A stretch of DNA of 64,000 bases from positions 25,541,068-25,605,067 of the forward strand of contig NC_090952.1 in the NCBI RefSeq assembly GCF_040807025.1, read 5' to 3'. This DNA comes from Struthio camelus. Taxonomy: Eukaryota; Chordata; Aves; Struthioniformes; Struthionidae. The notes below the pieces were generated by a model that saw nothing but the letters and a program-made list of their open reading frames with translations, did no database searches and was not told where the DNA came from. The position numbers and the translations under genes were made by a program. Positions 10,823 to 64,000 of this stretch are shown here, piece after piece (within the stretch, counting starts at the first letter, position 1; each line of letters begins with the position of its first letter).

Positions 10823-14669
<3,847 letters not shown>

Positions 14670-21121: not shown

Positions 21122-21149
21122 CCCGCCGCCGCCCGCCCCGGGGCAGGGC

Positions 21150-23477: not shown

Positions 23478-26350
23478 CTACTGGCGCACTTTTCCTGGGA
23501 CGTAATTCCTATCAATAGTCTCCTCTTGCAGGAACATATGTAAGCAGCGCTCATTCTGTGCCAGTGGGTGTCCAGCAATTCTGGAAGAAAAGCACAAGTG
23601 GAGGTTAGCACAGCCACCACAGGGGTCCCCACAAATCCACTTTGCGTAGTGAGTGAATAAGGTAAACTTCACTAACGGGGACCAGCCTCAAGCACAAAAA
23701 TGTCATGATCACTCCACAGCCTTGGGAGGCCTGACCTGCCCAAGGGGAGCAAACCCAGGGACTTGGGCTTTTCCCGATCAAATTGAAGCCTTGAAACAGC
23801 CACTCTGGGGCGAGGCCAAGGTCACTGGATCGGCATGTATCAGGGCCAGCAAGAGATGCTTGAGCACAGAGTAATCCCTCCACTAGCACGCTCTGCAGCA
23901 GGGTCACGAGCATCCTGAAACAACACTATGCAGTCAGTGAGTCTCTGCAGCACAACTTATCTGCTAACATTCACTTCAGTCTCAGAACAGAGCACTGAAT
24001 ACAGTCCACAGTCAAGGCAGGACTTGCTTCAGAGATGTGACTTCACTACCCAGCTGCAGGCACCATCCTTTAGCGTGGCACTCGCACACAGTGGATCAGG
24101 ATTCCTTCCTAGTCAACCCACAACCCTTTTCTGCTGGCAGCAGCCAGGAGGGCAAGCACACAGCAAGCCCAGGACACCAAGCTTACTTGTTAATAAACTG
24201 TTCTAGTCCCTGTCTCCGCTCCTCAATGAAGGACTCCTCAAAGATGCCTTCGTCTCCTCGGAATGGAAGCTGTCGTTTCAAAGCTTTTCCAGGCAGCGGT
24301 GGCACTACAATCTGAAAGCGCAGAATCATCGCCATTAGCAGAACTGCCTCCTGCAAGAGGGCTTCCTTCGCTGTTTGATGCTCAGCTCTAGCACCATTAC
24401 TTGGCCAGAGATCAAGCCTCAGCAGCAGCAGCCCACCACAGCCTCTCCTCTGGGTAAGACATGATCATTGCTACAATTGTTACCGTGTGACCCCATTGCA
24501 GCAAAGGTCCGAGCTAGGCCTCACCTTACTGTCTCGCTCCAGCTCATTCTTCAGCCATTCAAAGTCACTGTATCTTCTCCTCACACACGACTCCTTCAAT
24601 TTGAAGATGGGGAGGTTTGTCTGTAACGAAGAGAAGTAGTTAATTTGCAGGTTGGTTCAGAAGCCAGATAGCATTTCAAGATGTAATCGAAACCTAAAGC
24701 TGCATTTAGAAAGCCAAGCCCCCTGAGAAGAACGCATCACGAGAACACCCAGCTCCATTATTCAGGACATAAGCACTGAAGCCCTTCAAAAATCAAGCAA
24801 GCACTTGCCAGGCTACTTGAAGCCAGCCGTTCCCTCCCCCTCAAGTTACTATTTCAGGAAAACACCCCCTCCCAGGGGCACACACTGGAACCAGGGCTTA
24901 CAGTACAGAGAAGGCTTCCCGCCCCCCCCCTCACCCCCTCCGAGTTCACTCCATTTTGAACTGGTGTTCAAGAAAGCTTCGTAGTAGCTTCCAGAGCTAA
25001 AGAACCTCCCATCTGGCACTGCCGTTTCCATGGAAGAATTAAGGGAGGAAATCTTGTCCCAGCAACTGCCCAAGGCCAGATCTCGTGCTACAATCTTCTC
25101 TACAGAACAGACTGACTACCCAAATGGAAAAGCACCTTTTCCATATCTGGCCTGTGCCACGACAGGAACTTTGCAGCAGTTCCCCTCCCTTCTTCCCCCC
25201 ACATCGGAGTCGGAAGCCTGAAAGCTACAGCAACTTCACCCTCACGCTGCCAATAATAAATACATCCTGAAACAATCAAGGAACTAAGGCAGCAGAACCT
25301 TCTGACAAGTCAGCACCAGATGTACACAGGTGGTGCTGCCACACACATAACTGTATTCTCATCAGGTCCGCAAAACAAAACCAGCCGCTTTTGAAACATC
25401 TCTGCAAGAGCTAGTCTCAGTGACACTAAGCGGTTCTCACTGCCATCTGCCAGACACTGTTTGGCAGGTTGAACGAAACCAAGCATCAGGACAGAAAAAG
25501 AGCAAACACCCAATCCTCCTCCGAAAGGCAGCGGAGACGCAGCAGTTAAATCATGCCGTGGAACAGAAGCCAACGCCAGCACCGTAACGTACACTAGCAG
25601 CACCTTGTTTCAGGAGAAGCTCAGTTTTACTTGCGCTATCCTATAGCGAGCCTCGAAGTCACCACCTCAGCCCAATTAAGGCCCAGAACCCTGCAAGAAG
25701 CGCTCAGCCTGCTACGCGCTCTTCAGGACCGCAGGCTCTTTGTGAAGCGACCGAGCTTATTCGCAGACGGCAGCTCCACCGCAGCGTGATGGGCTCCCGA
25801 GGCACTGACAACTGGCTTGCCTTCCCTCTTGGAGGAGGCAGCTGCGGGCAGCCGCTTCCCGCGGCTGAGCGCCAGGCCTGGGGGCCTGCCGGGGGGCACC
25901 CTCCTTGGTGCCCAGGCCTGCCTGGACGGAGAAGGCCCTCCTGCAGCGGCGAGCGCCCCGACCTTGAGCCCTCGCCCACTGGGGAGCGGCCAGGCCCGCA
26001 GCCAGCCCCAGCCCGGGCTTCGCAGGGCCCGGCCTCGCCCCTCACGAGTACGTCCCCCCCCCCGCCCGCCCAGGCCCATCCCCTGCCCCCACGGCTCCCC
26101 CCGAGCTCGCCGCGGGCCCCCTCCCCGGTCGTCCCCCACCGGGGCCTGCGCCGCCGGCCCGCAGAGGCCGCGCCGCGGGCCGCACCCGCATGCGGAGCTC
26201 GTAGCTGGTGTATCTGGCGCGGCCCATGCCCACGGTCTGCGGGTTGAAGATGTCGATCTCCAGGAAGTTGCTAGGCGGCCCGTACGCGTCCGTCAGGTCC
26301 TGCGGCTTGGCGTTCAGGCGCCGGGTGTCAGCCACCGCCGCCTCCGACAT
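23478..26350 (-). CDS. SNX12: Sorting nexin 12
   Basis: Four coding exons, 26350..26186, 24620..24525, 24311..24187 and 23580..23478, join in frame to 162 residues, the same as the human protein as I remember it and nearly identical to it from [13 protein letters not shown] to NYVPGKVRQ. It is a single PX domain protein of the SNX3/SNX12 type. The phosphoinositide-binding [10 protein letters not shown] motif and the basic [14 protein letters not shown] loop are present, which fits PI3P binding on early endosomes and retromer-linked sorting. The upstream in-frame extension to 26428 is a translated GC repeat and is rejected as the start. The gene is divergent from FOXO4 across a shared CpG island. 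Confidence 0.97.
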
Positions 26351-26414
26351 GGTGGTGCTGCCGCCGCCGCCGCCGCCGCCGCCCCGCCCGGCCGCTGCCG
26401 CAGCCCCGCTGCCG

Positions 26415-27610: not shown

Positions 27611-30600
27611 ATGGCGGAGGCGGGCGGCGCTGCCGCCGCCGCGGGGCTGGACATCGACCCCGACTTCGAGCCGCAGAGCCGGCCGCGCTCCTGCACCTGG
27701 CCGCTGCCGCGGCCTGAGCTGCCGGCGGCGCCGGCGGAGGCGGGCGGCTCTGCGGCGGGCGGCGCGGAGGAGGGCGCGGGCGGCGCGGCGGCGGGGCCCG
27801 GGCGGGCCGAGGGGGCGCGGGCGGGCGGCGCGGCGGCGCGGAAGGGCGGCTCCCGGCGTAACGCCTGGGGCAACCAGTCCTACGCCGAGCTCATCAGCCA
27901 GGCCATCGAGAGCGCCCCGGAGAAGCGGCTCACGCTGGCGCAGATCTACGAGTGGATGGTCCGCTCCGTGCCCTACTTCAAGGACAAGGGCGACAGCAAC
28001 AGCTCCGCCGGCTGGAAGGTGCGCGCCGCGGGCCCCGGCGGGTGGGGGGTGCCCGGGCCGCCCCGGGGTGTGAGGGCTGGGGAGAGGTTGGGGGTGGGGG
28101 GGGGAGCTGCACCGGGCAGAGCTGGCCCCGTGGTGAGGGAGGGCCCGGTAGGCCGCTGCCTGTCACCTCGGCCCTGCCGGTGCCCTCTGCGCACAGCCTG
28201 CTGTTCACCTGTTGCTCCGTGTCCCGCCGCAGGCCTCGAGTGCGTTAGCTGGCTCGGTCGGGGCCCGCTGGCAGCCGCGGTGTTGCGGGCCTGTCCCCTG
28301 GGCTCCTCCGGGGCCCGCTCCGGGCTTCGCACAGCCTGAGCGGAGGCACGGGCTTCGCTGGGCGCCAGCCCAGGGCTTCGCTCGGTCACTGCCTTGCCAT
28401 GAAAGGCTGCTCCTTGTTCGCTTTGCGTCCTGAAAGTTTTCCAGGGAGGGAGTCAGGGGTCAGTGGAGAGACTCTAGCTAAGCGGCTGTGTAAGATGAAG
28501 CATCGGTTAAAGGGCCTTTAAATACAAGGCCGCAGTTCTTTAGCCCCTGTGCGAAAGCTCAGTATAAATAACTGTTTCATAGCAGACATTCTTGGCTTTC
28601 AAGAACCTCCCTTCAGAAAGGGTGCTGTGTCCCAGAGCAATGCCGATTCTGCTGCGTAGTGACTGAGGACCTCTGCTGGAGTTAGGAAAAGGGAAAGTAG
28701 ACCGAGGAACATGCTCTTCAAAAATCTCTATATTATCTTCTCCTGTTGCTCTGGCAATAGGCACGTGCTAAGTTCTAGTATAAGAGCTAACTTCCATTTC
28801 CGTCCTCTGCAGGTGGCAGCTTGGTGTTCCCGTTCCGTTTAGTCAGACGGACTCGAGCAAAAAGAAAGGGAGATGTGAGAACTGGCTTGTGAAATAGTCC
28901 CTTGTGCTGTCCTCGTATATCACAGAGGCTGCCAGAGTGACTGGAATCTAAAGCGTGTGATCTGTTGCTGCACACTGGAATTACACTTACGCTACGCTCC
29001 CCTTGTTTGCAGAGTATCTCTCTGTTTGTGGTTAGCAGCGCTGCCGTGGCGCGGTTCTGTGGCAGCTTGAGCCCATATGGTTTGGGGCTTCCACGACTCC
29101 AGCCGGGCATTCCTTTGCCTGTGAGCTGGTGCCTGTGTGATCAAGCAGCAAGTCAGCTCAGAGAGTTGAATTTGCAGAAAACTGATGGTTTTTTCTGGTA
29201 GGTTAGCTTTCAGCTGGCTCAGCTCTCTGAAGTGGCACACCGTGCGGTTGCATGAATGCTGGTGTTTGCTCAAGAGAGGGTAGGAACGTGGTGAGAGGGG
29301 CGCAGCTGTCCCAGCTTAAGCTGGCATAGGTTAATGCAAAACATGTCACCTTTCCCATTTGTCCAGCTCACTGAAGGTTCCTGGGGAGTGCAAGGAGTTT
29401 GACTAAAATTGACTATTCATTTTTTCTTTTCTTCCGTCATGCAGGTTGAATCCCTATTAACAAGTGCTGACTTGAGACAGCGTGCTTAGATACGTTTGCT
29501 TTCTCCTCAGTAGAACTGAGGTCTCACTGATAGACAGTTTTTGCTTGCTTGGGCTAGGCAGGCTGTCCTGGGCCGCCTGCTGCTGCGTGGAATCGTATTA
29601 TTTTGGCAAACAGGACATTACATTGGTGCATTTTCTCTTTGGGAATGTCTCTGTCTGTTTGGCAGTAATGAGTTTGCAGCTGGAACGCTCCCTTTGGGTT
29701 CTCTGCGGTACAAACTCTTTTCCTGACCTTCTAGTAGTTATGAACGTGAAGCGGTTGTATTGTAAATGAATCCTACTGCGTCTCGGTCCTTAAGGCTGAG
29801 GAAGCTGGCACATGGAGTTAAGCAGGCACTGAGATGCTTTATTGTGAGATGTGTTTCAGGACCTAGGTCTGGGGATAGATAACAGAGCTTGAGACCAAAG
29901 TTCGGTGTGGCATCTTAGATATGGCCCAGGATATCTTGGGGAAGTTGAAGGAGCGTAGTGAGGTATCCTATCAGGCTAGATGCTGGTATAGATGGACTTC
30001 TGGCTTGATCCAGTGTGACTGTTCTTTTGCTGTAGTCCTTAGTGTGAAACAGGACCTTTGGCTTTACTCTTAAGATTTCATCATGTGTTGTCAATTTTGG
30101 AAAAAGCGTGGTTGGATTTAGCTTGTGGAGAGGCAGAGATGAGAACACTTTGTGCGTAAGTGTGTGAGAGTTGAGGGCCCTGCTCTGGCACTGTTGCTGG
30201 AGTTGTTTGATGTAGTTTGACTTTTTGCTGATGAAGTTCACTTGTAGTCTTGCAGCCTGTGAATGGGCTAACTCAGGCTAGCTTTAGCAAAGCGGGGAGA
30301 ACAGAAACTTCTTGTGAGGGAAGATGAGAGAAGGCAGAGTGACAGCAGCTGTGCTTGTGATCAGCCCACCTTATGGTTAGAGCAGCTTAAAACTGTGGAC
30401 TTCAACCAGCAAGCAGAAAACTATGGTGGAAATACAATTGAAGCTGTTTAAATGCTGGGGGAAATTCCCCTAAAAACTTGTTTTAATTGTTAGCAAATAT
30501 TGTCCAAGTCTGATTTTGTATATGGACGGTATACTGCAAATTAAGCAGTTACGTATCCAGGAAAAGCAAAGGGAGCTGTGTGCGCTCTCCCTCAAATCCC

Positions 30601-33600
30601 GTTGGCATAGCTTGGCAGGATGCGTGCCCTGGCTTGTGTGATGGAGCATGTGAGGCGGGGGGGGTGGTGGTGACTGCACAGCTCTGACTTCTAGCCCTGC
30701 TTTATGTTAACACATGGTTATGAAGATTTGCAGGTTTTTTCTTTTTTTTGCTTGCAGTGAGAATTATTTTTGTGACAAAGAATTTTACTCTATTTGTATT
30801 AAGGTGCATTAGATTAAGATGAGTTAGAAATTTACAGTTTAAAAGGTGCTGAGTAAGTCAAATTGGTTCATTTTGTGGACTGAATAAATTTAATAGGTGC
30901 CCATTTTTATTCAAGACGAACTGAACAGATGAAAGATGTATTTTCAGTTGAAAAATGGAGCTGCATTTTTGTAACTGTTCTTTATATTTTAGAACTGTGA
31001 CGCTCTGCTTGCACCGTCTTAATTTGTAGACAGAAAAGAAAAACTGCTTGGGTTGTCTTGGCTGTATCGATATCTCAGTTTTGAACTGAATGGGTTGGAC
31101 AAGGGAAACTAGTATGGAGCTGTTGCCAAATGCTGATGTAGCATTTTGATTCCAGTTGAGATACTGCTACAGCTCTTGCAGTTCTGGTGTTTCTGTATTG
31201 CTTTGGCAGAACCGTGCCGGTAGTACGATCTATTCACGTGCGGTGTAGTTCTAGTAGAGAGTTTTAAATGGGAAGCTGAAAGAAGCGCATCTTGAAAACA
31301 CTTATTTTTATCTGCTTTAGTTAATATAAAATCCATAAACTCATTGTTACTTCAGAATTGCTTTACAGCTGTTTCACTCCACTATACAATTGAGGGAAAT
31401 ACAACTGTTACAGACTGCGAGGGTGTAACCTGTGTGAATTCCGGAAAAATCTGTGTTTTCGAGGAAGGTGGTGTTTGCTGTTCTTGAACTGTTTTAAATA
31501 CTTTGTGAAGTGACAGTTTTGCTGGATGTGCAGTCTACCTTTTCTCTGCTGTATTCCCGCAGAAGTTAGGAATTAACTGGGCGGAAAGGCAGAAGTGTCC
31601 CAGCGGGGGGGTGTCCCTGGACTTCTTTGTGATCCTCTCCTCAGTACTCTGCAAGCTGCTCTGTGGATAAGAGGATAATTCTTCCTGACTTTGTGATTGT
31701 TTGGGCGAGGAAGGTGTTACGGTTTTGGAGTAAAGCTATGCTCTGTTCAGGAGAAGCGCATAAACCTTTCTGAAGCGGTTTGTGTGTCCTGGTTGCAGAA
31801 AGCCTTGCTTCCAAGAGCATGAGCAAGCTTGATAAAGTCACGAGCGGTGTTCGGGACTAGTCTTTCTCAGTGGAACAGTCCATATATTCTCCCAAAAGTG
31901 TTTTCTCTGTCTTTGTGGGAATATAATGAACTCTAAAATCATCCTTTTTACCTACCAGAGATGTTTCACCTTAGTGAAAGTCAGGCCTCTTTTCTCTGTT
32001 GCACATGTAGGAAAAGCAACCGATTTTCAAGTGCACCATTAGTTATAGGAGGTTTAGCTGACATCTCCACGTTCTGATACTTTGCATTCACTTTGACTCA
32101 AATGTATGTGTATTCACTGTGCAACAGCTCAAATGGTTGTGTACTGCTAATTAGGAATCACCAGGTGCTCTACTTGTCTGAAACAGAAGCTGTTACTGAA
32201 ACAGAAGCTCTTACCCCTTGTTATACAGGGGCAGCATTTTGCCTACAAATGTTCCATTCAGCCCTCTTCTCATTCTTGAGACACATGCATGTTGCCTGTA
32301 GCTGATGTTAGCTGTTGACCAGATGGATCAGGAGGCCTGGGCGAGGGCTCTGTGGTGATTCCTCGCGTGCAGCCTGCAATTCTGTTGAAGATTATAGAGT
32401 GACTTCCCAGGTTTCCGCCGCTGTGGCGCTGGCTCTGAAGGTCACCAGGCACCTCCTGGAATTGAGGGTGTCGGTAGAGTGTACACAGAGCTTCATCGTG
32501 TTGAACTAGCTGCTCCTCCTTTGGCCGTATGAGGTTCCTCTGTGGAAGAAGAATAAGCCAGAAGACAAAAGCAAGCCTGATCCATGTTCTGGACCATTCT
32601 TGCTGTGCTGGGGCTGGTAGGTTCAGCTAGGTCATCCTTATGCCTTATTGCAAACGAGTTCCAGCTCAAAGGATCTAAAATTAAGCAAATACTTGCTTTG
32701 GTAAAGATGAGCTTATCGTTCATTTGCTTGTTGGCTACTGTCCAGTCAGCTTCTGCTTGTTTTGTAGGCAGATCTACAAAAAGCAATGGTCAGTTCCTCG
32801 AACAGTCACATTAGCTCTTTGCTCATCTCCACCTGGATTCTGCAGGATCTCTGGAGATCTTTTGGCTCAGACTTGTCAGTATCATAGCTTCTTGGCGTGG
32901 GCAGGTGAAGGCCCAAACCAGTAGCAGGAGCTCCTTCTTGTATTTCACAAAGAAACCCTCTATGGAAAGGAACATCTTGTGGTGGGAAGGCTTTACACAG
33001 GTTTGCTTTTGACTTCTGGTAATCATAATCTCCAGCCGCCACCTTGAAAAGGAAACTCTTTCCCTCTCTTTGCTCCCTGAGACGTAGCTGACTTTAGGCC
33101 AAAAAGGCATGAAGCAAAGGGAGATGTAGAACTTAAACTCAGCATCTTAACACTAAGCAAAGATTAGTTCTGCCTGACCTTCACTCTAATGCACGTTTGT
33201 ATGTAGAGGAGGCTTAGCTCAGGGTCTGATTCCCTGCCTGCTGTACAGGGGTCGTGGACAGTGCTGCTTAGGGAAGGAAAAGGATGCTTTCTGTGGGGTG
33301 TGCTGAGAAAGCCATAGTGCTTACTGAGAAGTTCATCTGCCAGAATTGGTACTATTCTACTTTAAACTTTCTTATGCTAAGACTGTGGAGTTGCAACATC
33401 TCATGATAGCCACATGTCCTTAGCCCCCTTTATATAAAGGGACATTAACCTCCCTACTCTACCCAGGAATATTGCACTGAATAAGCATGGGAGAGAGCAA
33501 CATTTTTATTTATTTATTTTGAAGGCTCATTGGAGGTAGGTGTTCCCCTCAAAAGGGGAGGGAGAGGGCTCTCCCTTTTGGCAAAAGCCTACCTGCCTTG

Positions 33601-36600
33601 TGCAATGCAAGACGAGTTACCCGAGGATTTCGCTGCTACCCTGACAGTTTGTTTTGGGAAGGTGCTTTGCTGAACAGTTCAATTTTTCAGGGAGTTCTCA
33701 GTGAAGGTTATTCCTTGGATGCTGCTATTACTTGTTCCAGCAGGTTTTTTCTACTCTGCCTAATCCAACGTTGCTTTTGTTGTATATGCTTGCATGTTTT
33801 AGTAAACTGGTAAATTGCCTCAGTCTTTCTATTGGGAGAACTAAGATTTTTCTTTTCTTCTGAACTCTTCTTGGATTCAAAGGTACAGCTTTCTGTCTCC
33901 TGAGCTTGGTGTCTGCTCACGTGGGCGTTCTGGAAGGGGAGAAATGTTTCGGTGCTCTGGCTCCGGAGCAGTTGTTTACTCAGTGGAGTGCAACTTTGCA
34001 AAATCTCTGCAATGAAGACTTTTTCCTAAAGCCTTTGGAGCCAAGTGCCGGAGTGAATGCTGAGACAGGCGCTGACAAATGTGCAAGGCGGAGCATCCTC
34101 CTCTTGCAGCCTCCGAAGAATACCATGGCAAATTATAATTTAGCACAATTACAGGCCTAGCGTTGGAACGTGGCCCTATGCCGGGTTGTAACCATGTTCT
34201 TTGTATGCCTCCAAGGCAGCGAGAATGTATTAGAGGGAGCAGCAGTGACTGTACTTTGGAATTTTCTAGTGTTTTCTGTCATTAAGTCTCGAGAGAGGTA
34301 TTTTGCCAAGAATTCTGGTGCTTCCATCATTTGCAGTAGGAACTTGAAATTTTCCAGGAAGGATAGTCCTGGTGCTGGAGGAGTGGTGATTGTCAGTCCA
34401 TGAAAACGCAGGCGGACGTGGGCAAGCCTGCAGTTTTCAGGGATAGCTGTTTTTTGAGTCTTTCTCGGTACAACTTGTACTTGGCTTGGCCTGGAGCACT
34501 CTGCTAGCACGGTTCACGCAGTTGCGGCATATGCATGCTGCTCCAGGCCAGGCACAGAAGAGCCTTCTCCTCTCTTGCTCGGATCAGATGAGTACTTCCA
34601 GAAAGGTATGTTGCAGGAGAGTAAGGTAGAGCTTGTTACTCTTGGCTGATGTGAAAGACCTTTATATCTGAACAAAGTACTTGGCTCCAACGCTGTGATC
34701 TGCTGAGAGAAAAACTTGAATTTTATGGTCAGTAACCTGAAGCTTACCCACATAGCCATGTGGTCCCTTGGAGAGGCAGTCGCTGGTATGCTATCTTGCA
34801 TATGAAGCACTTGAGCTTGCTACATGGTATTTCAGTATCTGTGGCACTTGCCTGGAAGGATTGGCCGGGCGAGCTAATCGCTTAGTTGTGCTGCCAGTTC
34901 CTGTGGCCGATTCCTCGTCTTCAGACCTATGCGCTGTTGCGTTGCACAGGGTCCAGCACCTACTCCCTGACACCGAGCGGGGGGACAGCCTATTGCAGAA
35001 GGAAGGAGCGCTCCTTTTCAGTAAATAGGACTGGGAGATTTTTATCAAAGAAGAAGTTTTAGAGCTGTGGTAACTACTTGGGAATTAGGAAATCATTTGT
35101 ATATGCTGTTAGTTGTACCACTCTGGCTTTTCCGTATATCCTGTCTTGTACATGAGGAGGTTGGGGCCGAGGGAATGGTTGATTGTTCAGCGTACAGTAA
35201 ATGTTTCTAGCCAAACTTTAATTTTACGTAATATCTGTCATGAATTTCGTAATGGTTTTGTCTGAATATGGTTTACAGGAATCGTCTTTGATCTGTGGCA
35301 GATCAGAGACCCAGACTGGCATTTTTCCATCACAGTACTTAACACGCAGCATAGCATATGCTCAGAAAAATGATTTAGCCCCCAGAATCTCTAAGATGTT
35401 TAAAGAGTTAGTAGTGCTGTTCCCCTCCCGCCACTTATTGAAGGGGTTCCTGAGGATTTGGAATGAAGGTTTTCTGATTATGCTTGTTCCTTCAAATAGC
35501 ACTTCCTTATGCTCACAGGTGTTGCATAGCTAAAAGCTTCTGTGGATTGCAGGTGCTCAGCAGTGTAGGAAAATCCCAACTGGTGTGAAGCTGGACATCT
35601 GAAAAGCTAACTTCACCTATATTTTTGGCTCGAGTTGCCTAACAGTGGAAAAGGAAGCGCGTCAGGGTTGCCTAGGCAATTGAATTCTGTCATTTCCTCT
35701 CCTGTCAGGTTTGACTTGGGGTTCTACCATTATTTTAGCATAATTAATTTTTCATTAGTGAGATTTGAGAGTGCCCTCTGTATTGTAGGCACGCTAAATC
35801 ATTCTAGTAGCTGCACTCTGGTGCTGGAGAGCGTGCAGTGCACTAACGTGAGAAAGGGAAGAGTAAAGGAGTCTTCCTCCTGCTACCTGTCATAGAGATT
35901 AGCACCTGCCTGAAATAGCAGCTCCTCTTGTCTGCTGGAGTCCTAACTTTCCTGATACGCCTCCAGGGGGTCTCCTCCCGTTGTCAAGAGTCGTTCACTA
36001 CAGAGTTGCTTATACTCTCGCAGAGCACCAAGGTTGGTAGGTGAGTCAGTTCACTTCTATTTGGGGAACATCTGGACTTGAGTCTTGTTGTACTTTTAGT
36101 ACTTTTACATATATTTAGCATGAGAGGGGTTGGACTAGATGACCTCCAGAGGTCTCTTCCAGCCTCAACCATTCTGTGAGTACACCGCAGGGCTCAGGCA
36201 TGCGGATGCATTACGACTCTGGGTGTAGCTGTAGTGGTGAGCTGCTTCACAAAGCTTGTATGAGAGGTGTGAACATGTCTGATAACTTAGGAGTTGCAAT
36301 TTTGACAGCAATTAGCCGTAATAGTGTCCTGCTTTTTTCTCTTGCCTCCAACCATACATTGCTCTCTTCCTTACTTACCCGTTGGTGGTTGACTGCCCAG
36401 GGAGCAAGTTCAAGGAGCCAAAATGGGCAGGAAAAGTAATTTTCAAGGGGGGATAGGGCTACTTTTTGGGTTGGGTTAGCTCTCTGAACCAGTGTATAGT
36501 CAGACAAACACTTGTGTTCGTGGGAGGCAGAGGGCTAGGAGATGAGGAAGGAAGGAGTGGCACAGCAATTAGCCGTTTCTACAGCTATTAGCCATTATGT

Positions 36601-39600
36601 CAGTTTAATAGTAACATGTAAAAGCACTTTGAGATTCTGGCATAAAAGGTTCCAGGCTTCCCGTGTCTATGTTGATGTGAATGCTAGCTTTATTTCAAGA
36701 AGTCTTATTTCAAGCTTCTTTTTCAGCCAAAAGACTATTGAAAACTAGATATTAAAATTTCCATCTGTGGTGCCAGAAGTGATGGTCCATTTTCTTCAGG
36801 TTTCGGTGCTACTGAAAGGCCTGCGCTTCTGTAGTGTGCTTTTGTTGCATGGGAATTAAAACGTGACTTTAGCCGTAAATGATATCTAGCAGAAAATGGA
36901 AAATAGTTATTTGTGAAATTCTGTGAAATCCTGGACCTGTTGGTTTAAAGTTTAGTTTCAGTAAATAGTGCTAAGAACCCAGCAGTTATACAGCTCCAAA
37001 CATGCATGTACAAGCTACTGAGTCATTCCTGATGGGACTTGGTGACAAGAGTTCACAGATTCCTTTCAGAAGAATAAATGAAGAATATGACAACCTAGTG
37101 TGGTGTTCAGTGTGCGCATGTGTGTGGGTTTTCTTTTGTTTTTTGTGTGTTTTTTTTTTTTTTTACTACTGCAACAATATGTATTTGATGTCAGGAACAC
37201 CCACGTGGAGGAGAGAGAATTCTTTGGAAATCAAAGCAGCAGCCTTTTCAGGAGACAGGGTACCAGTCTGAATTATTTTTCCTGAAATTTGAAGGAAAAT
37301 AAATTTTTATTTAAGGAGAGGAAAAAAAAAAAAAAGGCCAGACAGGCCTGTTGTATAGTTATTGCTATGAAAAACTCAGGTCGCGTAACTGCATAAGGAC
37401 ATTGACTGACGCATGTTCCAGCAAGTCCAAGCTCCTCAGAAACCCTTGGGGCGCACTCTGAATAAGAGCCTATTATCCTTTGATACTGATCACAAGCAGC
37501 CAAACAGTCTTCTCTGAATCCTGGGCAGCCAAAGATTAAAATGAGAGCTAACGCAGGACTGCTCTCACATGTCCTTCCTTTTCCATGACAACTCTCCACT
37601 TTCCCTCTGTTTATCTACATCTCCTTTGTTTTAGGACAGTACTTTTGGTGGGGTGGACAAAATTAGCCTAGTAAGGACTTGTCAAAGAGGAAAAGGGTGG
37701 GGAGAAGGAAAGCACTAGGCAGGAAAGAACTCTGAGAGGAGGTGGAAAAGGATGATAAAAGCACATGAAAGCTGAAGGCTGCTGTAGGCTGTTTTGCTTA
37801 TGTGAATAACAGGTACTCTTAGATCACTATGCCACCAGTGCAGCACCTTTAACTATGTGCAGTTTGACCATCTGGACAAATCGGGTGCAGATATTAAACA
37901 ATGCCCCCTGCGGTTCTCGAGGGGACCTTAGGTTCTCGAGGGCGATCTGCTCCAACAATGAGATTATTGCTTGCTGATTCTAAAATACTGGGGGTTTTAC
38001 CAGCAAGGTTGCAGGACAAAAATTCAGTTTGATAATGGTATACAGAGATGTTAGCTAGCAGTTTGTAGAAAAACTAAACAAAAGGGGGGGTGGGGAGGAG
38101 GGGCAAGGAATGTGTGGCTTGCCAAATGAAAAGATGGGAGAGGCTAAGACTGGCGTGTACAGTGTGGGAGTACAGTATCTGCTTGAACATCTTACCCCCC
38201 TAGAAACACGCATGGAGGAAAGCATACTGCCTCCTTGCAGAGTGAGGCTGGCAGCCTCCAGGCTTACCATGACTCCTGCTCCACAAAGTTTCACTCTTGT
38301 ATATCTGTTTTGGGAGTAAAGATGGTAATGGGAAATACTGAATCTGAAGTCGTTTGACACGTCTCTTCACCCGGTCTATTTAATCCGGTTCACTGCTATG
38401 CCTAATGCTCTGATCCGGCCGAAAGCCGTGCAAAGTCAGTGATCCTCTGAGCTGTACCAAAATTCAGAATTTCAGCCAGATTTATTCCATATGACTGCTG
38501 GGGTGGGCAGAAGGGTAGGAGTAGGAGGGAAGACAAGAGTGCCCCTTTCTCACAGCAGCGTTGACTCACGTTGATTTAGGCTCATGGTGAGTTTGCAAGC
38601 CTTATTTGGGAATTTGCCTACTCTCCCTTGTATATGTTGTTATAGATTTCGTAGCAATAGAATATGATTTTGAGAAGTTCTTTAATGTCACTGTCCTGGT
38701 AATGGGAAGCTGCTATAGTTGTATTGATAGTCTTGCCCTTGGTGCTGCAGTGAGACGTTGCACCCCTTGCTATTTGCTGTCGAACGTGTCCAAGCAAAAC
38801 TAGCAGGTTTTCTTTGTTATAACTTTCTTCTCTGGGTACTATCTTAATGCATTCCCACCTAGGTGGGAAGTGTGGTGTCAACAGTCAGATCCTCATATTT
38901 TGGGTTTGCTTTTTTTTTTTCCCCCTTCCAGAACTCTATTAGACATAACTTGTCCCTGCACAGCAAGTTCATTAAAGTTCATAATGAAGCCACAGGAAAG
39001 AGTTCTTGGTGGATGCTCAATCCTGAAGGGGGTAAAAGTGGAAAAGCACCAAGAAGAAGAGCTGCCTCCATGGACAACAGCAGCAAACTCGCAAAAGTCA
39101 GAGGTAAAGCATCCAAAAAGAAGGCTTCTCTACAGGCCACTTCAGAAGCCACTGCTGACAGTCCTGGCTCCCAGTTCCCTAAGTGGCCTGGGAGCCCATC
39201 CTCAAGAAGTAATGAGGACTCTGATGTGTGGAACACTTTCCGGCCTCGAACCAGTTCCAATGCAAGCACCATTAGTGCCAGGCTTTCTCCTATCCTGACT
39301 GAGCAGGATGACCTCCATGATGAAGAGCTTCTCCCTTCTCTAGTGTACTCCAGTGCATCCAGCAATGTTCCACCAACTGTGACTGAGGAGCTTGAGCTCA
39401 TTGATGGGTTAAGTCTAATGTCTCCCAGCTCAACTGTGCTATCCACCCAGCAATCTGCCTCGAGTGGTCCAATCCAGAGAGATTCCAGCTTTTCCTTGCG
39501 GAGCCCAAACACAGCTGGTCAGACCACTACTTTTGGCAATTCCCTGTTTAATCCTGTTGATATCTCGCTGCAGAGTTCTGTCAGCCATTTCTCTGGCCCT

Positions 39601-40155
39601 CAGACCTTGGAAGCTCTTCTGACACCCAGCTCTCCGCCTCCAAGGGATGTTATGATGACTCAGGTGGACCCCGTTCTCCCGCAGACTGGTAGCAGGATGA
39701 GCAGCCGAACTCTTCTGCTTCTAGGTGGACAAGCTGCCCAGAGTAAGATGAGTCCTGGTAATCCACGAGGAAAGCCTACAGAGCAGCAGGCAGAGCCAGT
39801 TGGTGCCAGTGTTTTGCCGTCAACACTTCCCATAGTAGCATCTCCTCAAAACACTGCCAGCGTGGCCAGTTTGAAGGCTCCAGTTTCTGCAACAGCTGCT
39901 CAGTCAGTCCAACTGGGCACTCCACCACTTCTTTCTTCTGCTAGCCCTGCTCCCTTGGGATTGAACCAGGACAGGCTGCCCACTGACCTGGACATTGACA
40001 TGTACATGGAGAACCTTGAATGTGATATGGATTACATAATCAACAGTGACCTCATGGATGGAGAAGGACTGGACTTTAATTTTGAACCCATTCTATCTAC
40101 TCCCAGCTATCCCAGCACCTCACAGGCCTCCAACCATACCTGGGTACCAAGTTAA
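27611..40155 (+). CDS. FOXO4: Forkhead box O4 transcription factor
   Basis: Two coding exons, 27611..28018 and 38932..40155, give 543 residues. The intron splits the forkhead domain at the usual FOXO position (SSAGWK then [13 protein letters not shown]). FOXO4 is an insulin/AKT-controlled activator of stress, cell-cycle and metabolic genes. All three AKT sites are visible: T29 (RPRSCT), S182 (RRRAAS) and S245 (RPRTSS). The DNA-contact helix [10 protein letters not shown] is complete. The C-terminal activation region ([18 protein letters not shown], then [14 protein letters not shown]) is typical of FOXO4. Unlike human FOXO4 as I remember it, it continues to a final NHTWVPS resembling the ends of FOXO1 and FOXO3. 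It lies next to SNX12, as in human. An Ala/Gly-rich low-complexity stretch separates T29 from the forkhead. Confidence 0.97.
29970..30027 (+). mobile_element. Old CR1/L3-type LINE 3' fragment
   Basis: GATGGACTTCTGGCTTGATCC followed by CAGTGTGACTGTTCTT matches the 3' end style of ancient CR1/L3 LINEs (remembered as GATGGACC..TGGTCTGA.CCAGTA.GGC.GTTCTTATG). Only the 3' tail is recognisable and it is diverged, so it is old. Confidence 0.55.
36123..36180 (+). mobile_element. CR1 LINE 3' end fragment
   Basis: GGTTGGACTAGATGACCTCC, AGAGGTCTCTTCCAGCCTC and ATTCTGTGAG form the classic avian-type CR1 tail. The copy is 5'-truncated to under 100 recognisable bases and lies in FOXO4 intron 1. It is the clearest taxonomic marker in the window. 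Confidence 0.85.
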
Positions 40156-54620: not shown

Positions 54621-54624
54621 GTCA

Positions 54625-55952: not shown

Positions 55953-58900
55953 CTACGAGACCATGTACTGGGTGATGGCCTGCAGGGCGTACAGCAGCTC
56001 CGCCTGCATCCTGGCCTCCAGGATGAGGAGATTCACGTGGACCTGCGGGAGAAGCAAGGGAGGTTCGGGCAGCCGCTGCGGCGCAAGCGAGCGGCCGGCC
56101 GGCCGGGCTAGCGGCAGCCCGGCTCAGCACCGTGCCCGGCCCGGCCCGGGGGTGGTCGCCCTACCTTTTCACTGTGCTTGAACTGCTTCCAGAACCTGTC
56201 AAACATCTCCGGGTTTGTCTTCTCTGGGTAGCAGGTGACAGTTTTAATGTAAACTTTGAGCATTCGCTCCAGGAGATGATTCACTTCCGCGTAGTCGTAG
56301 TCGTCGTACCTGCGGGGAGCACGAGCGACGGTCACAACCCAGCCCCTACCGACTCCCTCGCTCGGGGTCTGCTCCGGTGCACGCTGCCACCGTGGGGGAC
56401 AGCGGCCACCAGGCACCAAGTCCTGCCCCAGAAAGCCTTGGCACGGCCCCCCAGGGTGGCACGGGACGGCTGCGGTGCACACCACTGTCATCGCGGCAGC
56501 AAAGTGCCCTCTCCCAGCCGGAGAAGCTGAGGATTTTCTCCATCTCCTGGCCCCATCTCTTTTCCAAGCCAGTCTGCAGGACATCCCAGAGCGCCTGGGG
56601 ACGCAGCCGAAGCAGGCCGCGCTCCTGCGCCTAGCTCAGCGTGGTTTTCCCCGCGAGGCCGGGAGACGGGGAGGTTTAGCTACCTGATGCCGAACATGCA
56701 GTGGATGTAGTTCCAGATGCCCCGCTTGAAGACCGAGGGTTCGCAGCCCTGCCGCTTGGCCATGGCGCTGCTTTGCAGACCATCCACCATGCGAAACTTC
56801 TCATCCAGGAGATGCCCGATGTCGGAGTAGAGCCGGTTCACCAGTGAGAAGCCGTGGTCTTCCCAGGAGTAATCCTGTTGAGCACAGCAAGAGGCTTTCA
56901 CCACTGCATAAAGGAGCCCGGGGCACGTTCCTAGGAAGAGCTGCTGCTGGAGACCTCGGGTGTCTGCGGGCAGCTCTGCCACAAGTCACAGCGTCCCTGA
57001 TCAGGTGGCTTTTGGATAATTTTGACCCCTGGCGCTGCACTGACCCATGCCTGGCCCAGAGGGCTGATGTGATGAAAACACAAGTCCTCGACGTCAGGTT
57101 GATGCTCGCCTCCCCCTCCCCGACGCTCGTCAGACGGTCCCCTTTCTGAGCAGCGCCTCTCCAGCGCAGGGGCGCAGGGACAGCCCTCTCCGGCACGGAC
57201 TGCAAAAGCAGCTGCCCTCCGGCTGCGCTGGCCCCCCGCGCGATCGGCCGCCCCCCACCAGGGGAAGAGGCGAGGCGACAGCCCAGGCTGCCGCAGGCCT
57301 GCGGGTTTATGTCCCCAGGAGAGCAGGAACCTCACCTGGACTCTGAATACCTGCGTCTGATCCTCGTCGCGCCGGGCAAAGTCCTGGTATCCGAAGTCGG
57401 GGTCCTGCATGTAGCACGCAAGGTTGGTGGCACCGGTGACTTCCCCATCGAGATCTGGGAGGGAGGAGAGGACGAGTCGGAGCAGCGCTAAACGCAGCTC
57501 AGCTCCTGCGCTGCCCTGTGCCCCACGGCCGGGGCGGCCACCGGGCCCGTCCCCGGAGCACGGCTCCTTCCTTTCCCGCTCCCAGCGGCGCCTCTCTGAA
57601 GATGTCCCAGCTGCGCCCACAGGGTCTCCTCTGAGCAGGTTGGGGCCTTGCAGGTGGGAGCTGCGATGGCCACGTCCGGCGGACAGGCTGGTGTTTTTGG
57701 CCCCCCCCCCAACCCTGGCAGGGAGCTGCTGTCCTGCCCACCCACCTCCGCTCTTTTCCTCTCACCTTCCTCTCGATCCTGTTGCAGCGGCCTCGTCTCC
57801 TCTCTGCCCTCAGTCTCGAGGTGGATCCGCTGGATACGTTCCCGGAGGGAATCCAGCTCCATGCAGGAATCCAGAGACTGCTCGGAAATATATGTTATAG
57901 CGGTGGTTAGGGCAGCGGCGCCGGCCCCCTCCTGCCCGCGGATCGACCGCCGGGGCTCACCCGCTTGCGACTGATGCGCAGCAGCTCCTGGTTGCAGCCG
58001 TTCCCGCTGGCCGCCTCGCAGAAGCACTGGTTCCCGGGCGAGAGGGGCTTCAGCGTGCCCCGGCCGCCCGGCCCCTCTTCCTGCTCGCAGCCGCAGCCGA
58101 ACACGAAGCTGGCGAGCGCGTGGCAGTGCGCCAGCAGCACCACCGCGTGCACCAGCTCCGCCAGCGACCAGCTCCACTCGCTGATTTTCAGCAGCTTCTG
58201 CGGGACGGAGAGAGGCCGGCGATGCAGCGAGAGGAGCACCCGCCTCCCCTCCACCGCCAGCCCCGCTGGGGACTGTCCCCGGCCGGCGGAGGTGGCTGAG
58301 GTCCCCGCCGCCAGCGCGCACCCGCTGCCCAACCTCCCGGCCCCGCTACCTCGATGTGCTCCTTGGTGACGAGCCAGGGCCGGTGGGCCAGGATCTTGTT
58401 GATCTCGCTGAGGTTGCGGAGCTTGAGCGGGATGAAGTCGAGGCCGCGCAGCCACTGGGGATCGCCTCCCACGCGCAGGAACTGCAGCACGTGCAGGTTC
58501 ACCAGGTACCTGCAGCGGTGCCGGGCGGCCGCCTGCAAGAGCACGCCGGGCGTGAGCACCCAGCGCTCGGCTCGCCGGGGAAGAGCCGCCCGGCCGCCGG
58601 CATGGGGCGAGAGCGCGACAACGATTTCGGGCTCTGCAGAAAAGCCTGCAGCACGAAGAGCGTAGGGCTCGGGGGCTCCCGGGGCAGCGCCGTGCGCTCA
58701 CCATGATGGCGATGTAGTGGCGGCAGTCGAAGGGCAGCGGGCCGTCCATGTGCAGCAGGTAGTGCTGGGTCTTGAGGAAGCTGTCGAGGTACTGCGGGTG
58801 GTAGCCCATCTGCTGGGTCACCGCCTCCAGCCGGCCCCGGCTCGCCAGCGCCTTCACGAACAGGAACTGGGGGCGCTCGGGCTCGCTGCTGGACATCTTC

Positions 58901-60727
58901 ACTACCTGCGGGGAAGAGGCCGTGTCTCAGCAGCCCGACCCCAGCTCCGCATGGGGCCCGGGTCGGCCCTCGGCCCTCGCTCCTGCTTGGACGAGACCAG
59001 GAGCGAGCGACATCCCGGCCACCGCAACCTGGCCAGCGGCACACGGAGGGGCTCACGGGTCTCCCCCCGCTCTGACCAAGGAGACCGCGCACCAGCCCCA
59101 TGGGTTCAAACGCAAGAGTCGACCTGGAAGACCGAATCCTGCACCGCCTCCCGTTCAGCCCTCTTAACCCGCAAGAGCTTCCCCAGGCCGGCACGCACCC
59201 CGTGAAAGCGCAGAAGAGCGCCCTAAGGTGAGGGGGGTCCTGCCGCGGCGCCGTGCTCGAACCCGCCTCCTACGGCTGCGGCAGCACCAGCCAACCTCCC
59301 CGGCGAGCAGAGCCCAAAGCTGGGTCACCCCGGTCCTTCTCCAGAGGGTGCTGGGAACGGACCACGGGGAGGTGCACAACACCCTGGCCTGGGAAGGTGC
59401 TGCACCCGGCATCCACGGCGCGGGCACGGCCGGCCCCGGCACCGAGCTGGCCTTTGCCACACGGACAGTCACGTCCCCAGCTCGTGCTGAGCATCTCTAG
59501 GTGGGACGCGGGAGCCCCTCGAAAACAGCGAGCGCCTCTCCCCTCCCAGCGCTCGAGCCTCACGCTGGGCACGCGCCGCCTGGCATCTCCAGCCCGCTCC
59601 CGAGCTGCTCCTCGGCAAGGGGACGCGGTAGCCGCTCAAGGACCGGGGTAGGGGGGTGACAGCGGCGCCCACCAGCCCCTGCTGCAGGAGAGGCCGGCCA
59701 GGACACCAGGACGCACCCTCACGGCCCGCGGACCGAGGCGCTGGAGACCCGGAGGGTTTGGCGGCCGCCGCGTCCCCCTCGCCTTACCCATCGCCAGCGG
59801 CCGTCTCGCCCACCGCGGAGCCCTACGGAGCCTCCTCTTCCGCAGCAGCCGGGCAAACGGCCCCGGGGCGACCCAGAGAAGCCCGGGCGAGCGAGGCCGA
59901 AGGGCGCAGGCAGCCGGTGCCGTCGCACCCTCGGAGCCGAGCGGCGCCGACCGTTTTGTGCCGCGCTGCCGCTTCCGAGGACGGCGCCGGCGCGCTCGCC
60001 CAGGCGTCGAGGCGCTCGCCGACGGGCCGCCCGGAGCCTCCTCCTCGGCTCTGCCCGGGGAGAGCCCGAGGCCACGGTGAGCGGCGAAGGGAGCAGAAGC
60101 GCCGGCTGGGCTGCGCGCAGGGCACGGCGCGAAGCAGGAGGCACCCGCCACGGCGAGCGCTGCGGGAAACACGCGTGGGGCCGCGGCCCCGGCGGAGGCG
60201 ACCGAAGCGACGGGCCCGGGGCATCCTCGCCCGCAGCAGGTGATGCTGCCGGGGAGGCGGCGGCGGCGGCCGGCTCCCCCCACCCCCCCCGTCCGCGGTG
60301 CCGGTAACCGGTAACCGGAGCCCCATTGTGCGGGCGGCGGCAGCGGCAGCGCCCCCGGTGCGCGACGAGGGCAGTGCAGGCGGAGAGAGAAAAACAAGTT
60401 TGATTGGCAGTGATGGAGGCACGGCGCCTCCCGCATCCCGCACAAAGGGGACGGAGCCGCCGCACCGGGCACCGGGCACCGGCACCGCGGCGGGGCAGCG
60501 CGGCCGCGCCGACCCCGCGCAGCGCGGCGGGAAGAGCCCGGCTCGGCGGTGCCGCAGGAAGAGCCAGGCCGGTACCGGCGGGCGGGCGGGCGGGCAGAGC
60601 CGGGGCACGGCCGGGCCCGGTGCCCCGGTGGGGGCCCCGGTGGCGGCGGGGCGGCTCCTACCTGCCCCTGCAGCCGCTGGCACCGGCTTCCTCGGGGGTG
60701 CTCCATGCTCTGGGGACACAGGATCAT
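55953..60727 (-). CDS. Sestrin family protein, probable fourth vertebrate Sestrin
   Basis: Nine exons, 60727..60662, 58905..58702, 58532..58350, 58197..57961, 57877..57766, 57454..57336, 56874..56684, 56309..56165 and 56042..55953, join in phase to 448 residues. SESN1-3 have about 480-550. Sestrins restrain mTORC1 by binding GATOR2, and some also sense leucine. The N-terminal half keeps the alkylhydroperoxidase-like set C97, Y99 and H104 ([10 protein letters not shown]). The C-terminal half keeps the GATOR2-contact pair D373-D374 (YDDYDY), W411 and E418. Q341-A344 replaces the SESN2 pocket residues TYNT, and T386, L389 and R390 are P353, F356 and K357. The C-terminal half reads closest to SESN3. 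The N-terminus is short and lacks the usual SRFIPEKE-like motif; initiation at exon 2 (MSSSEPE) is possible. It lies tail to tail with FOXO4. Confidence 0.93.
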
Positions 60728-61230
60728 GGTGAGGCCGCGCCGTGCCGTGCCGTGCCGTGCCCCGGTGCCGCCCGCCCCGTCCCGTCCCGTCCCGTCCCGG
60801 CCGCCGGCACCGCCGAGCCGGGCACCGCGGCAGCCCGAGCACCGGGAGAGGGGCGTGCCCACCGCCGCTCCTGCGCCAATCACCGCCGCCGTGGGGGGCG
60901 GGGCCAAGAGCCGGCGCCCCACCGACCAACCCGCAGCGAGGGGCGGGGCGGCGGCGGAGCCAAGGTTTAGGGAGGGGAGGGGGGGGAGCGGGGGCGGCCG
61001 CCGGCCGCACCACGTGGGCAAGGCTGGAAAGTTACCCGTCGGTCAAGTGCCGGCCGCCCCGCCCACCGCGGCAGGGGGCGGGGCTAGAGCGCCTGCCCCG
61101 GCCCCGCCCCCGCCGCTGGGGGGCGCCGCGGCGCTGCTGCCCCCCCCCCCACCGTCCCGCCCCGGCGGTTGCCCCCACGCGAGAGCCGTGCAGCCGTGGG
61201 CCCTGGTGCGCGGCGGGGGCCGCCCCCCCC
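60728..61230 (-). promoter_or_regulatory. CpG-rich promoter of the Sestrin gene
   Basis: Upstream of the Sestrin ATG on its strand. It contains pentamer runs (GCCGT about 60737..60762; CCCGT about 60775..60800), a CCAAT box near 60870, GGGGCGGGGC Sp1-type boxes, and a CACGTG E-box at 61012..61017. No TATA box. It begins just past the polyA signal of CXorf65, so the two same-strand genes are almost contiguous. Confidence 0.55.
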
Positions 61231-61241
61231 CGGCCTCGGTT

Positions 61242-61247
61242 TTTATT
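61242..61247 (-). terminator. Polyadenylation signal of the CXorf65 homologue
   Basis: AATAAA on the minus strand starts only five bases after the stop codon (61255-61253), giving an almost absent 3' UTR. Confidence 0.7.
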
Positions 61248-61252
61248 CAGCC

Positions 61253-63025
61253 TCAGCGGTTCCTGTCCCTCCGGCCGGGCTCCTGCTTCGCCCTGGCGGA
61301 CGAAGCCGCCTTGCGCTGGGCCCCGTCGTCCTCGGCGGCTGCCGCCGCTGCTCGCCCTGCCGCCTTCCCCTGCTCCGAGGGGCAGCGGCTCACGGGGGTC
61401 CTGCCCGGCCGCGGCACCCGGGGACAGGGGGACATGGGGCACGGGGGTGGCAGGGCATGGGGATGGCAGGCACGGGGACAGTGAGCACAGGGGTGGCAGG
61501 GCATGGGGCACAAGGTGATGGGACAGCAGGGTGGCAGGGCATGGGGACATGGAGAGTGAGGAATGGGGCACAGGGGTGACGGGGCATGGTGGTGGCAGGG
61601 CATGGGGACATGGGGCACGGGGGTGACAGGGCATGGGGATGTGGGGCATGGGGACAGCGAGCACAGGGGTGGCAGGGCATGGGGACATGGAGAGTGAGGA
61701 ATGGGGCACAGGGGTGACGGGGCATGGTGGTGGCAGGGCATGGGGTGGGTCATGGGGCACGGGGACAGCGATCACAGGGGTGGCAGGGCATGGGGATGCG
61801 GGGCAGGGGACCTGGGGCGCAGGGGTGACGGGGCACAGGGGTGACAGGGCATGGGGATGTGGGGCACGGGGACAGGGAGCGCAGGGTTGGGGACATGAGG
61901 GCAGGAGGGGCCGGGCAAGCGGGACACAGGGAAGCAGGGCAGGGAGGTGGCGGGGTCGGGGACAAGGGGGCGCGGGGACCCCTGCCGCCAGGCGAGCGCC
62001 TGCCGGGTGCGGGGGCTGCAGGGGTGGGAAGGGCCCTGGCACAGGGCTGACGGCACGTCCGTGCCCATCACACGTGGCCTCGGGGAAGGCGACCGGGGCC
62101 GTGCTGGCTGCCCCGGGAGCCGGGACCGCTTCCTATAGCCGTTCCCCCCAGCACCACCCCGACCCCTTACCGCCCCGGGGGCTTGCGCGGTGGCAGCGGG
62201 CGCCATCTCCACGTTCGCCGTCCTCCTGCCCTCGGGCACCCTCGGGGTCCGGAGGCGGAGGCGGTGCTGGCGCTCGCAGTGCAGCCGCAGGGCCTCTGCG
62301 GCCGGAGCCGGGGCGGCGGGCACGTTCGGACGGGCTGCTCCCCGCCACCCGCCCCCCGCGCTGCCGCCCGGCCCCGGCCCCTCGCCCACCTGCCAGTGCC
62401 GCGTTGGGCTCCTTGAGGAGGGGCACGAAGGCTTGGTAGGTGTGCTCCTGCTGCGTCCCTGCGGCACGGACCCCCAAAACCCGCCCTGGGTCACCGCCGT
62501 CCCGCAGAGACCCGGCGCCTTCGCCGCAGCCCCGGCGGGCGGTGGGGGGGGGGGGACAGGGGGGACGGCTCTGCCTGCACCCACCGGGCGCACCGAACTC
62601 CACGCGGCACACGTAGTAGGGGCCGGGGGCCGGGAGGGACTTGCTGGCCCGTTCGCTCGGCAGCTTGGCCTGGAAGAGCAGCTTGGGGGTGCCCAGCTGG
62701 TCGCACAGGTCGATGACGGCTGCAAAAGGCAGGGGTGGGCGTGCGGGGCGCCGGACGGGCCCCGGCCCCCCGCCCCGCTGCCCAACGGCCCCCCCGCCCG
62801 GCGCTCACCTCCCGCCGGGACCCCCGCCTTGCTCCGCACGTAGGCCAGCAGCAGCAGCACCGGGCAGTCGGTGTTGGCCAGGAAGCGCTGGTTATCTGCG
62901 AGGACAGGGTGGCCGCGACCGTGCTTGGGACCCCCCCCCCCCGCTGCCACCATCCCGAGCGCCCCCGGGGGCGCTGGGACCCCCCCGGCGGGGCGCTCAC
63001 CGCCGTGCCTGACGCAGATGAACAT
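61253..63025 (-). CDS. CXorf65 homologue (uncharacterised protein)
   Basis: Six exons, 63025..63001, 62895..62809, 62719..62585, 62458..62390, 62295..62171 and 61369..61253, join in frame to 185 residues; the human CXorf65 product is about 183. Start MFICVRHGDNQRFLANTDCP, middle IDLCDQLGTPKLLFQAKL and YYVCRVEFGAPGTQ, then TYQAFVPLLKEPNAAL all match the human protein as I remember it. The N-terminal 90 residues look like a small ubiquitin-like fold, which is my inference. The C-terminus is lysine/arginine/alanine-rich ([16 protein letters not shown], then AKQEPGRRDRNR), comparable to the human basic Ala/Lys tail. Function is unknown. It sits beside IL2RG as in human. The large open frame through its last intron is a translated repeat. 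Confidence 0.9.
61425..61960. repeat. G-rich minisatellite in the last CXorf65 intron
   Basis: Irregular tandem array of GGCAGGGCATGGGGA, CACAGGGGTGACGGGGCATG and related 10-30 bp blocks. A higher-order copy of about 75 bases starting GTGGCAGGGC recurs at 61531 and 61669 (138 bp apart). The plus strand is G-rich and could form G-quadruplexes. Confidence 0.85.
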
Positions 63026-63450: not shown

Positions 63451-64000
63451 TCACGCTCCCACGTAGCTGTTCTCGCAGGGGCTGCGCTCCCGGGTGCCGG
63501 CGGGGGCCCCGGGCACGGCTGGCGGCTGGTTGCTGCCCTCCCAGAGGGGCTCGCAGCGCTCCTTGGGGGGCAGCTCGCTCACGTAGCAGAGGCTTTCGCT
63601 GTAGTTGGGCTTGAAGCTCTCCACGACGTCTTTGGGGACACCGGTCCATTCCTCCAGGAAACGAGAGCGGGCTGAGAGGGGCCGGCAGGGCCAGCGGGGC
63701 CGGGGTGCGAACCGCCAGCCTCCGCCTGCAGCCGCGCAGCGCCCCAAAACCGCCCGGCGGCCGCCTTACCTGGAAGTTGCCTTTGTGCTTGATGAAGAGC
63801 TCATCAAAGTTCTTGCTGGGATTGGGGATCCTGGGCATGAGGATGACCCACACCCTGCGCGGGAGGGACGGGTTGCAGGGGAAGGGCCGCCCAGCAGCGC
63901 TGCCCCGCTCCGGCCCCCGGCCCCGGCCCGGCACTCACCTTTCCATACGGACCAGTAAGATGACGAGGACCAGGAAAAGCAGACAGGAGGCGATGGGGAC
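63451..64000 (-). CDS. IL2RG: Common cytokine receptor gamma chain, 3' part (partial)
   Basis: Three exon pieces join in phase: 64000..63939 (runs off the window), 63854..63770 and 63651..63451. They encode the end of the transmembrane helix (ASCLLFLVLVILLVRMER), the box 1 motif MPRIPNPSKNFDELF and the JAK3-binding cytoplasmic tail ending SPCENSYVGA. KPNYSESLCYVSELPPK matches the human DYSERLCLVSEIPPK region, including its tyrosine. The gamma chain is shared by the receptors for IL-2, IL-4, IL-7, IL-9, IL-15 and IL-21. The extracellular cytokine-binding exons are outside the window. Its place next to CXorf65 matches human Xq13.1. Confidence 0.95.

Follow-up and report, generated by a model that had tools for sequence, protein, structure and literature searches.

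We analyzed a stretch of 64,000 nucleotides of the Struthio camelus genome (hereafter the window; contig NC_090952.1, positions 25,541,068 to 25,605,067), which carries, between FOXO4 and CXorf65, the Sestrin gene that is the subject of this report. In order of position, it contains NCBP2-like(+), PRSS23/35-type(-), SLC7A3-like(-), SNX12(-), FOXO4(+), Sestrin(-), CXorf65(-), and IL2RG(-). We rebuilt the FOXO4-linked Sestrin from the sequence and checked it by script, obtaining nine minus-strand exons that run from 60727 to 55953 and are separated by eight introns of 83–1756 bp, all GT-AG and with compatible phases. The joined coding sequence (CDS) of 1347 nt encodes 448 amino acids without internal stops. 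A preliminary description had placed a complete nine-exon, 448-residue Sestrin between FOXO4 and CXorf65, in the strand arrangement SNX12(-), FOXO4(+), Sestrin(-), and our reconstruction returned the gene at the same coordinates as well as the arrangement on the window side.

The exons, all on the minus strand, carry the recognizable parts of a Sestrin in order. Exon 1 (60662..60727; codons 1–22) is the least certain, with a CACC-ATG context and a GT donor in phase 0, and exon 2 (58702..58905) starts the SESN-A domain. Exon 3 (58350..58532) encodes the peroxidase residues C97, Y99, and H104, equivalent to C125, Y127, and H132 of SESN2, and exon 4 (57961..58197) the GATOR2-binding WSLAEL motif, in which S162 corresponds to SESN2 S190. 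The variable SESN-B linker, with the L261 equivalent retained, lies in exon 5 (57766..57877), and exon 6 (57336..57454) continues the chain to exon 7 (56684..56874), which holds an altered leucine lid together with retained L351 and D364. Exon 8 (56165..56309) encodes the GATOR2-binding DDYDY motif (D373 and D374, equivalent to SESN2 D406 and D407) and W411 and E418 (SESN2 W444 and E451), while exon 9 (55953..56042) includes the stop.

The only Pfam family matched by the protein was PF04636 (PA26/Sestrin; 624 bits, E 1.8e-187), with residues 18–446 aligned to positions 6–445 of the 445-position profile. The top solved-structure match was human Sestrin-2 (470 bits, residues 32–446), and of the six PDB matches up to E 1, five are Sestrin-2 and the sixth is a weak match to a peroxidase-related protein. 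Base shuffles of the CDS contained 13 stops on average and none of 1000 stayed open, and the G+C content by codon position (0.62/0.37/0.88) was coding-like. Given the intact nine-exon chain, the coding composition, and the near full-length PA26 match, the gene model describes a complete Sestrin and no chance pattern, and the FOXO4-linked Sestrin is almost certainly a real protein-coding gene. Exon 1 is its weakest part, as a search of both strands beyond base 50000 did not recover a GPSxFIP-like N-terminal motif, which we presume SESN1–3 to share. NCBIfam, which is oriented toward prokaryotes and thus weakly informative here, returned no family for the Sestrin or for the NCBP2-like stretch. 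Relatives were sought by pattern in a viral contig collection, with no match, and in a prokaryotic one, where none of five matches was confirmed, as expected for prokaryotes.

Conserved residues and an altered leucine lid

To place the functional residues of SESN2 on the window protein, we aligned the latter with human SESN2 residues 60–479 and with provisional sequences of human SESN1 and SESN3 (401 columns), judging invariance across SESN1–3; residue numbers below follow SESN2. The peroxidase residues C125, Y127, and H132 are retained, and 14 of the 16 invariant positions in the surrounding region (113–135) are kept. The GATOR2-binding motifs WSLAEL and DDYDY are intact by letter, with all four invariant positions kept at 188–193 and 11 of 12 in the DDYDY hinge (400–412). 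The region of HSEKVH and E451 (447–458) keeps 11 of 11. The floor of the pocket (W444, E451, HSEKVH) is retained, as are the equivalents of L261, L351, and D364. The interaction with WDR24 is reportedly abolished by L351D (PMC10938194).

The leucine lid, on the other hand, is altered by T374Q, Y375S, N376S, T377A, T386P, and R390K, which turn TYNT into QSSA. The window protein has Q341, S342, A344, P353, and K357 at the positions of T374, Y375, T377, T386, and R390, and thus lacks all five lid residues that characterize leucine-sensing Sestrins; the replacements can also be read from the alignment with solved Sestrin-2. Overall, it keeps 166 of the 214 positions invariant in SESN1–3, but in the lid region (370–391), which was singled out after inspection of the alignment, only 3 of 14 are kept, compared with 163 of 200 outside it (Fisher p 5.7e-6). 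When all 22-residue stretches were scanned, the maximum was 12 changes, a value reached by 1 of 2000 shuffles. Given that exon 7 is open in one frame only, that of the gene model, and that the lid stretch aligns gaplessly to SESN2, the lid change is no frame error. The preliminary description did not mention this change.

Mutations of T374 and T386 are reported to abolish leucine binding by SESN2, R390 is described as important in coordinating the carboxyl group of leucine, and Y375 is described as sealing the lid together with H86 (PMC11429811). Human SESN2 Y375F reportedly no longer binds leucine while retaining GATOR2 binding, and its changed residue is one that the window Sestrin has also lost. 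The best-matching Sestrin-2 chain in PDB, 9lwf_X, has F at position 375 where 5dj4, next in rank, has Y, and carries the leucine-blind Y375F change. The E451Q/R390A/W444E form, which serves as the 'apo' construct in structural work (PMC12136191), shares the change at R390, but the window Sestrin keeps W444 and E451. In contrast to these laboratory forms of SESN2, the window Sestrin has changed several lid residues naturally.

SESN2, the solved leucine sensor, has the same peroxidase and GATOR2 residues as the window Sestrin but a different lid. SESN1 keeps the leucine lid and SESN3 keeps TYNT, T386, and R390 in the provisional sequences, whereas the window Sestrin has lost them; SESN3 is nonetheless reported to bind leucine very weakly despite normal TYNT and HSEKVH motifs (PMC11429811). 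Across 1006 metazoan Sestrin reading frames, T374, T386, and R390 are given as conserved at 92.6, 92.4, and 92.4%, respectively (PMC11429811), meaning that some metazoan entries are without T374, T386, or R390. Non-metazoan Sestrins, according to the same review, resemble the window Sestrin in that a motif search detected no TYNT, and differ from it in that T374 and T386, both lost here, are present in about 76% of them, and only 1.9% have H132, which is kept here (PMC11429811).

Given the replacement of TYNT by QSSA, of T386 by P, and of R390 by K, no release by leucine is expected, and the window Sestrin is probably leucine-blind. Inhibition of GATOR2 is expected since WSLAEL, DDYDY, and L351 are kept, and we lean, by a small degree, toward the protein acting as a brake through GATOR2. 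A serious but clearly less probable alternative is that this is a fourth ohnologue no longer engaged in leucine sensing or GATOR2 control, serving instead as a redox protein or binding another ligand in its altered pocket. Retention of C125, Y127, and H132 and the concentration of change in the lid would suit such a protein. Against it, WSLAEL, the DDYDY hinge, and HSEKVH are well preserved, whereas the region around C125 keeps 14 of 16 invariant positions and has both neighbors of the catalytic cysteine changed.

Relationship to SESN1–3 and the FOXO4 neighborhood

Over the 401 columns, the window Sestrin is identical to human SESN3 at 234 (58.4%), the highest value, to SESN1 at 231 (57.6%), and to SESN2 at 215 (53.6%), the SESN1 and SESN3 sequences being the provisional ones. 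The human Sestrins share 245, 250, and 272 columns with one another (61.1–67.8%), so that identity to any one of them does not rise above the level between paralogues, where an orthologue would be expected to exceed it. The window Sestrin is not a near copy of human SESN1, 2, or 3, which supports the preliminary description on this point. Residues common to the window Sestrin and a single human Sestrin number 25 for SESN3, 16 for SESN2, and 15 for SESN1, and two-and-two site patterns, sorted by partner, number 8, 6, and 4, respectively.

An unrooted maximum-likelihood quartet (four tips, two of them provisional sequences) was nearly star-like. When every column is used, the window Sestrin stands beside SESN3 in the best tree, without significance; pairing with SESN2 had p 0.48 in the approximately unbiased (AU) test, and pairing with SESN1 had AU p 0.02, but p 0.085 in the Kishino–Hasegawa (KH) and p 0.17 in the Shimodaira–Hasegawa (SH) test. 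In the 303 core columns that remained once inspection had led us to take out the linker and the lid, its partner in the best tree is SESN2 and no pairing is excluded (SESN1 pairing, AU p 0.17). In this set, the internal branch measures 0.026, and the window branch, at 0.28, falls in the range of the human paralogues (0.17–0.36). A nearly star-like tree of this kind would be expected for four copies that go back to two genome duplications in close succession.

The neighbors are consistent with this origin. FOXO4 (27611..40155, plus strand) encodes KIX-binding and TAD domains and a forkhead divided between two exons, and matches Pfam FOXO domains; the top PDB match of the forkhead stretch is AFX, the old name of FOXO4, with 235 bits vs. 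215 for FOXO1, in chains that differ in length. SNX12 (23481..26350, minus strand) has four exons, and its product scores 321 bits against Sorting nexin-12, the top PDB match, vs. 293 against SNX3 among solved structures. Its exons are 85–92% identical to human SNX12, for which, as for the human genes compared in the rest of this paragraph, a provisional sequence was used. Searches with tblastn located CXorf65 (62406..62899, minus strand; two stretches, E 6e-23) and IL2RG (63562..63648, minus strand; one stretch, E 1e-8). The sole Pfam match at these two genes, PF15874, falls below the cut-off and sits on the CXorf65 exon though labelled Il2rg. An SLC7A3-like cationic amino acid transporter gene (10889..14642, minus strand) adjoins a single-exon open reading frame for a PRSS23/PRSS35-type serine protease (6219..7286, minus strand), which has visible TAAHC and GASGSGV motifs and is 55% identical to human PRSS23. 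The NCBP2-like gene (847–3173, plus strand) was recognized in four stretches with 68–85% identity to human NCBP2; in human, NCBP2 is a chromosome 3 gene and NCBP2L is X-linked.

For the human side, we assume the order SLC7A3, SNX12, FOXO4, CXorf65, IL2RG at Xq13.1, with no Sestrin there and no PRSS23/35-type protease in the FOXO4 block, and the order SNX3(-), FOXO3(+), SESN1(-) at 6q21. On these assumptions, the strands of SNX12, FOXO4, and the Sestrin in the window match the order of the FOXO/SNX paralogon. We further take SESN3 to lie at 11q21, PRSS23 to share 11q with it, and PRSS35 to share 6q with SESN1. With these locations, the PRSS23/35-type protease fits the same paralogon as the Sestrin and is possibly another ohnologue lost in human. 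Given that two gene families would then have members on 11q, on 6q, and in this window, the locations support the FOXO4 block as a paralogon partner that lost both the Sestrin and the protease in human. The assignment of human SESN1, SESN2, and SESN3 to chromosomes 6, 1, and 11 is published (PMC11429811).

Taken with the nearly star-like quartet, this arrangement makes the window Sestrin very probably a FOXO4-linked genome-duplication ohnologue of SESN1–3. The ohnologue interpretation had been put forward in the preliminary description, and the paralogon order and the shape of the unrooted tree lend it partial support, while neither SESN2 nor SESN3 could be singled out as the nearest paralogue. 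A later, fast-evolving duplicate of SESN3 (or SESN1) inserted beside FOXO4 is improbable. The larger number of residues shared with SESN3 alone and the best tree from all columns lean toward it, the latter without significance, but the core columns prefer SESN2, likewise without significance, and a position beside a FOXO gene repeats the layout that we presume for FOXO3 and SESN1. The eight introns (83–1756 bp) also rule out a processed retrocopy. It is more doubtful still that the gene is the true SESN1, SESN2, or SESN3 of this lineage, relocated beside FOXO4 and diverged, given an identity of 54–58% to each human Sestrin vs. the 85–92% per exon of the neighboring SNX12. That the gene is a pseudogene in decay, or that its exons arose by chance, might be suggested by the divergent exon 1 and lid and by the lack of a canonical poly(A) signal in the 4 kb past the stop, but is scarcely credible for 448 codons with no stop or frameshift, eight intact splice pairs, coding composition, and retention of 166 of the 214 positions invariant among Sestrins.

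The window is gene-dense and rich in G+C, which in our view suits a bird or other sauropsid. A CpG-rich segment immediately upstream of the Sestrin (60728..61128, minus strand; G+C 0.82, CpG observed/expected 0.90) is its presumed promoter, and degenerate tandem repeats with periods of 15, 31, 46, and 111 among others lie between the Sestrin start and CXorf65 (61428–61890). Another tandem array (26404–26717; 85-base unit, 3.7 copies, 96% matches) stands immediately upstream of SNX12 exon 1, and a long G+C-rich array (21149–21681; periods of 60, 152, and 212 bases) has long open frames on both strands without evident meaning. Rfam at the gathering threshold and a tRNA scan gave no match in the window, an ungapped repeat finder gave no repeated pairs of at least 40 bases within 28000–55000, and no CR1-type ATTCTRTG tail pair occurred in the window. 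An antioxidant-element pattern near the Sestrin (52001–62500) was discarded, as the pattern was too loose to carry meaning.

Proposed role of the FOXO4-linked Sestrin

The structure of the gene, its family and location, the motifs that it keeps, and the changes in its lid were read directly from the window, and they can be joined into a single proposal. The FOXO4-linked Sestrin would have arisen as an ohnologue of SESN1–3 in the two early vertebrate genome duplications, and would have been retained in this lineage and lost in human. By binding GATOR2 and inhibiting it, the protein would hold mTORC1 in check; leucine would not close the altered pocket, so that the protein would not be released from GATOR2, and control would be exerted through the amount made and not through amino acids. 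We give about an even chance to this joint reading of a SESN4 ohnologue, kept here and absent in human, that acts as a leucine-blind brake on mTORC1 via GATOR2.

Several observations weigh against it. The quartet built on all 401 columns gives the window Sestrin the longest branch (0.57), and the protein alone differs at 48 positions where SESN1–3 agree, so that it may have evolved fast or under relaxed constraint; moreover, the SESN1 and SESN3 comparison sequences are provisional and the tree is unrooted. Both flanks of the catalytic cysteine are altered (Q124R, S126R), and the conservation of D364 says little, given that D364R alone reportedly alters WDR24 binding very little (PMC10938194). 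Since R390K is conservative and the floor of the pocket is kept, the window protein may bind leucine weakly, and for the choice of the lid region after inspection, the shuffle scan corrects as to position only. The 4 kb that follow the Sestrin stop on the minus strand contain neither AATAAA nor ATTAAA; the first such signal is at 51705, and variant hexamers are found from 54686 down. Scanned with simple patterns, 52001–62500 showed no paired p53 site, and the Sestrin gene itself showed no FOXO site; a lone p53 half-site lies at 60392 in intron 1, and downstream of the gene are two more half-sites (55722 and 54102) and one FOXO site (54705).

Vertebrates are said to have three Sestrins in reviews of 2024 (PMC11429811) and 2026 (PMC13072324), and an amino-acid-independent mTORC1 brake of the Sestrin kind is described in neither, as far as the accessible portions of both go. 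The name 'SESN4' was not found in 5.39 million papers of open-licence literature; sequence databases lay outside this search and a '-like' listing is possible, so that absence from print is unproven. In the same literature, the only match to spellings of 'sestrin 4' concerns inactivity in Drosophila, and no match was returned for sestrin with ohnolog, for at least four together of sestrin, teleost, gene family, synteny, and sesn3, or for FOXO4 with SNX12 and synteny.

We tentatively propose, with somewhat less assurance than for the joint reading, that vertebrates began with four Sestrins, one per FOXO chromosome, and that the FOXO4-linked one became a leucine-blind brake gripping GATOR2 and was lost in human. 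A fourth Sestrin, if true, would change the reconstruction of how the family split stress and nutrient sensing. It would also matter for how knock-outs are read across species, as the loss of a Sestrin may have rewired mTORC1 in mammals. Finally, the kept GATOR2 motifs together with a naturally altered lid would, if the reading is true, offer a case from nature in which GATOR2 binding is uncoupled from leucine sensing with no need for engineered mutants.

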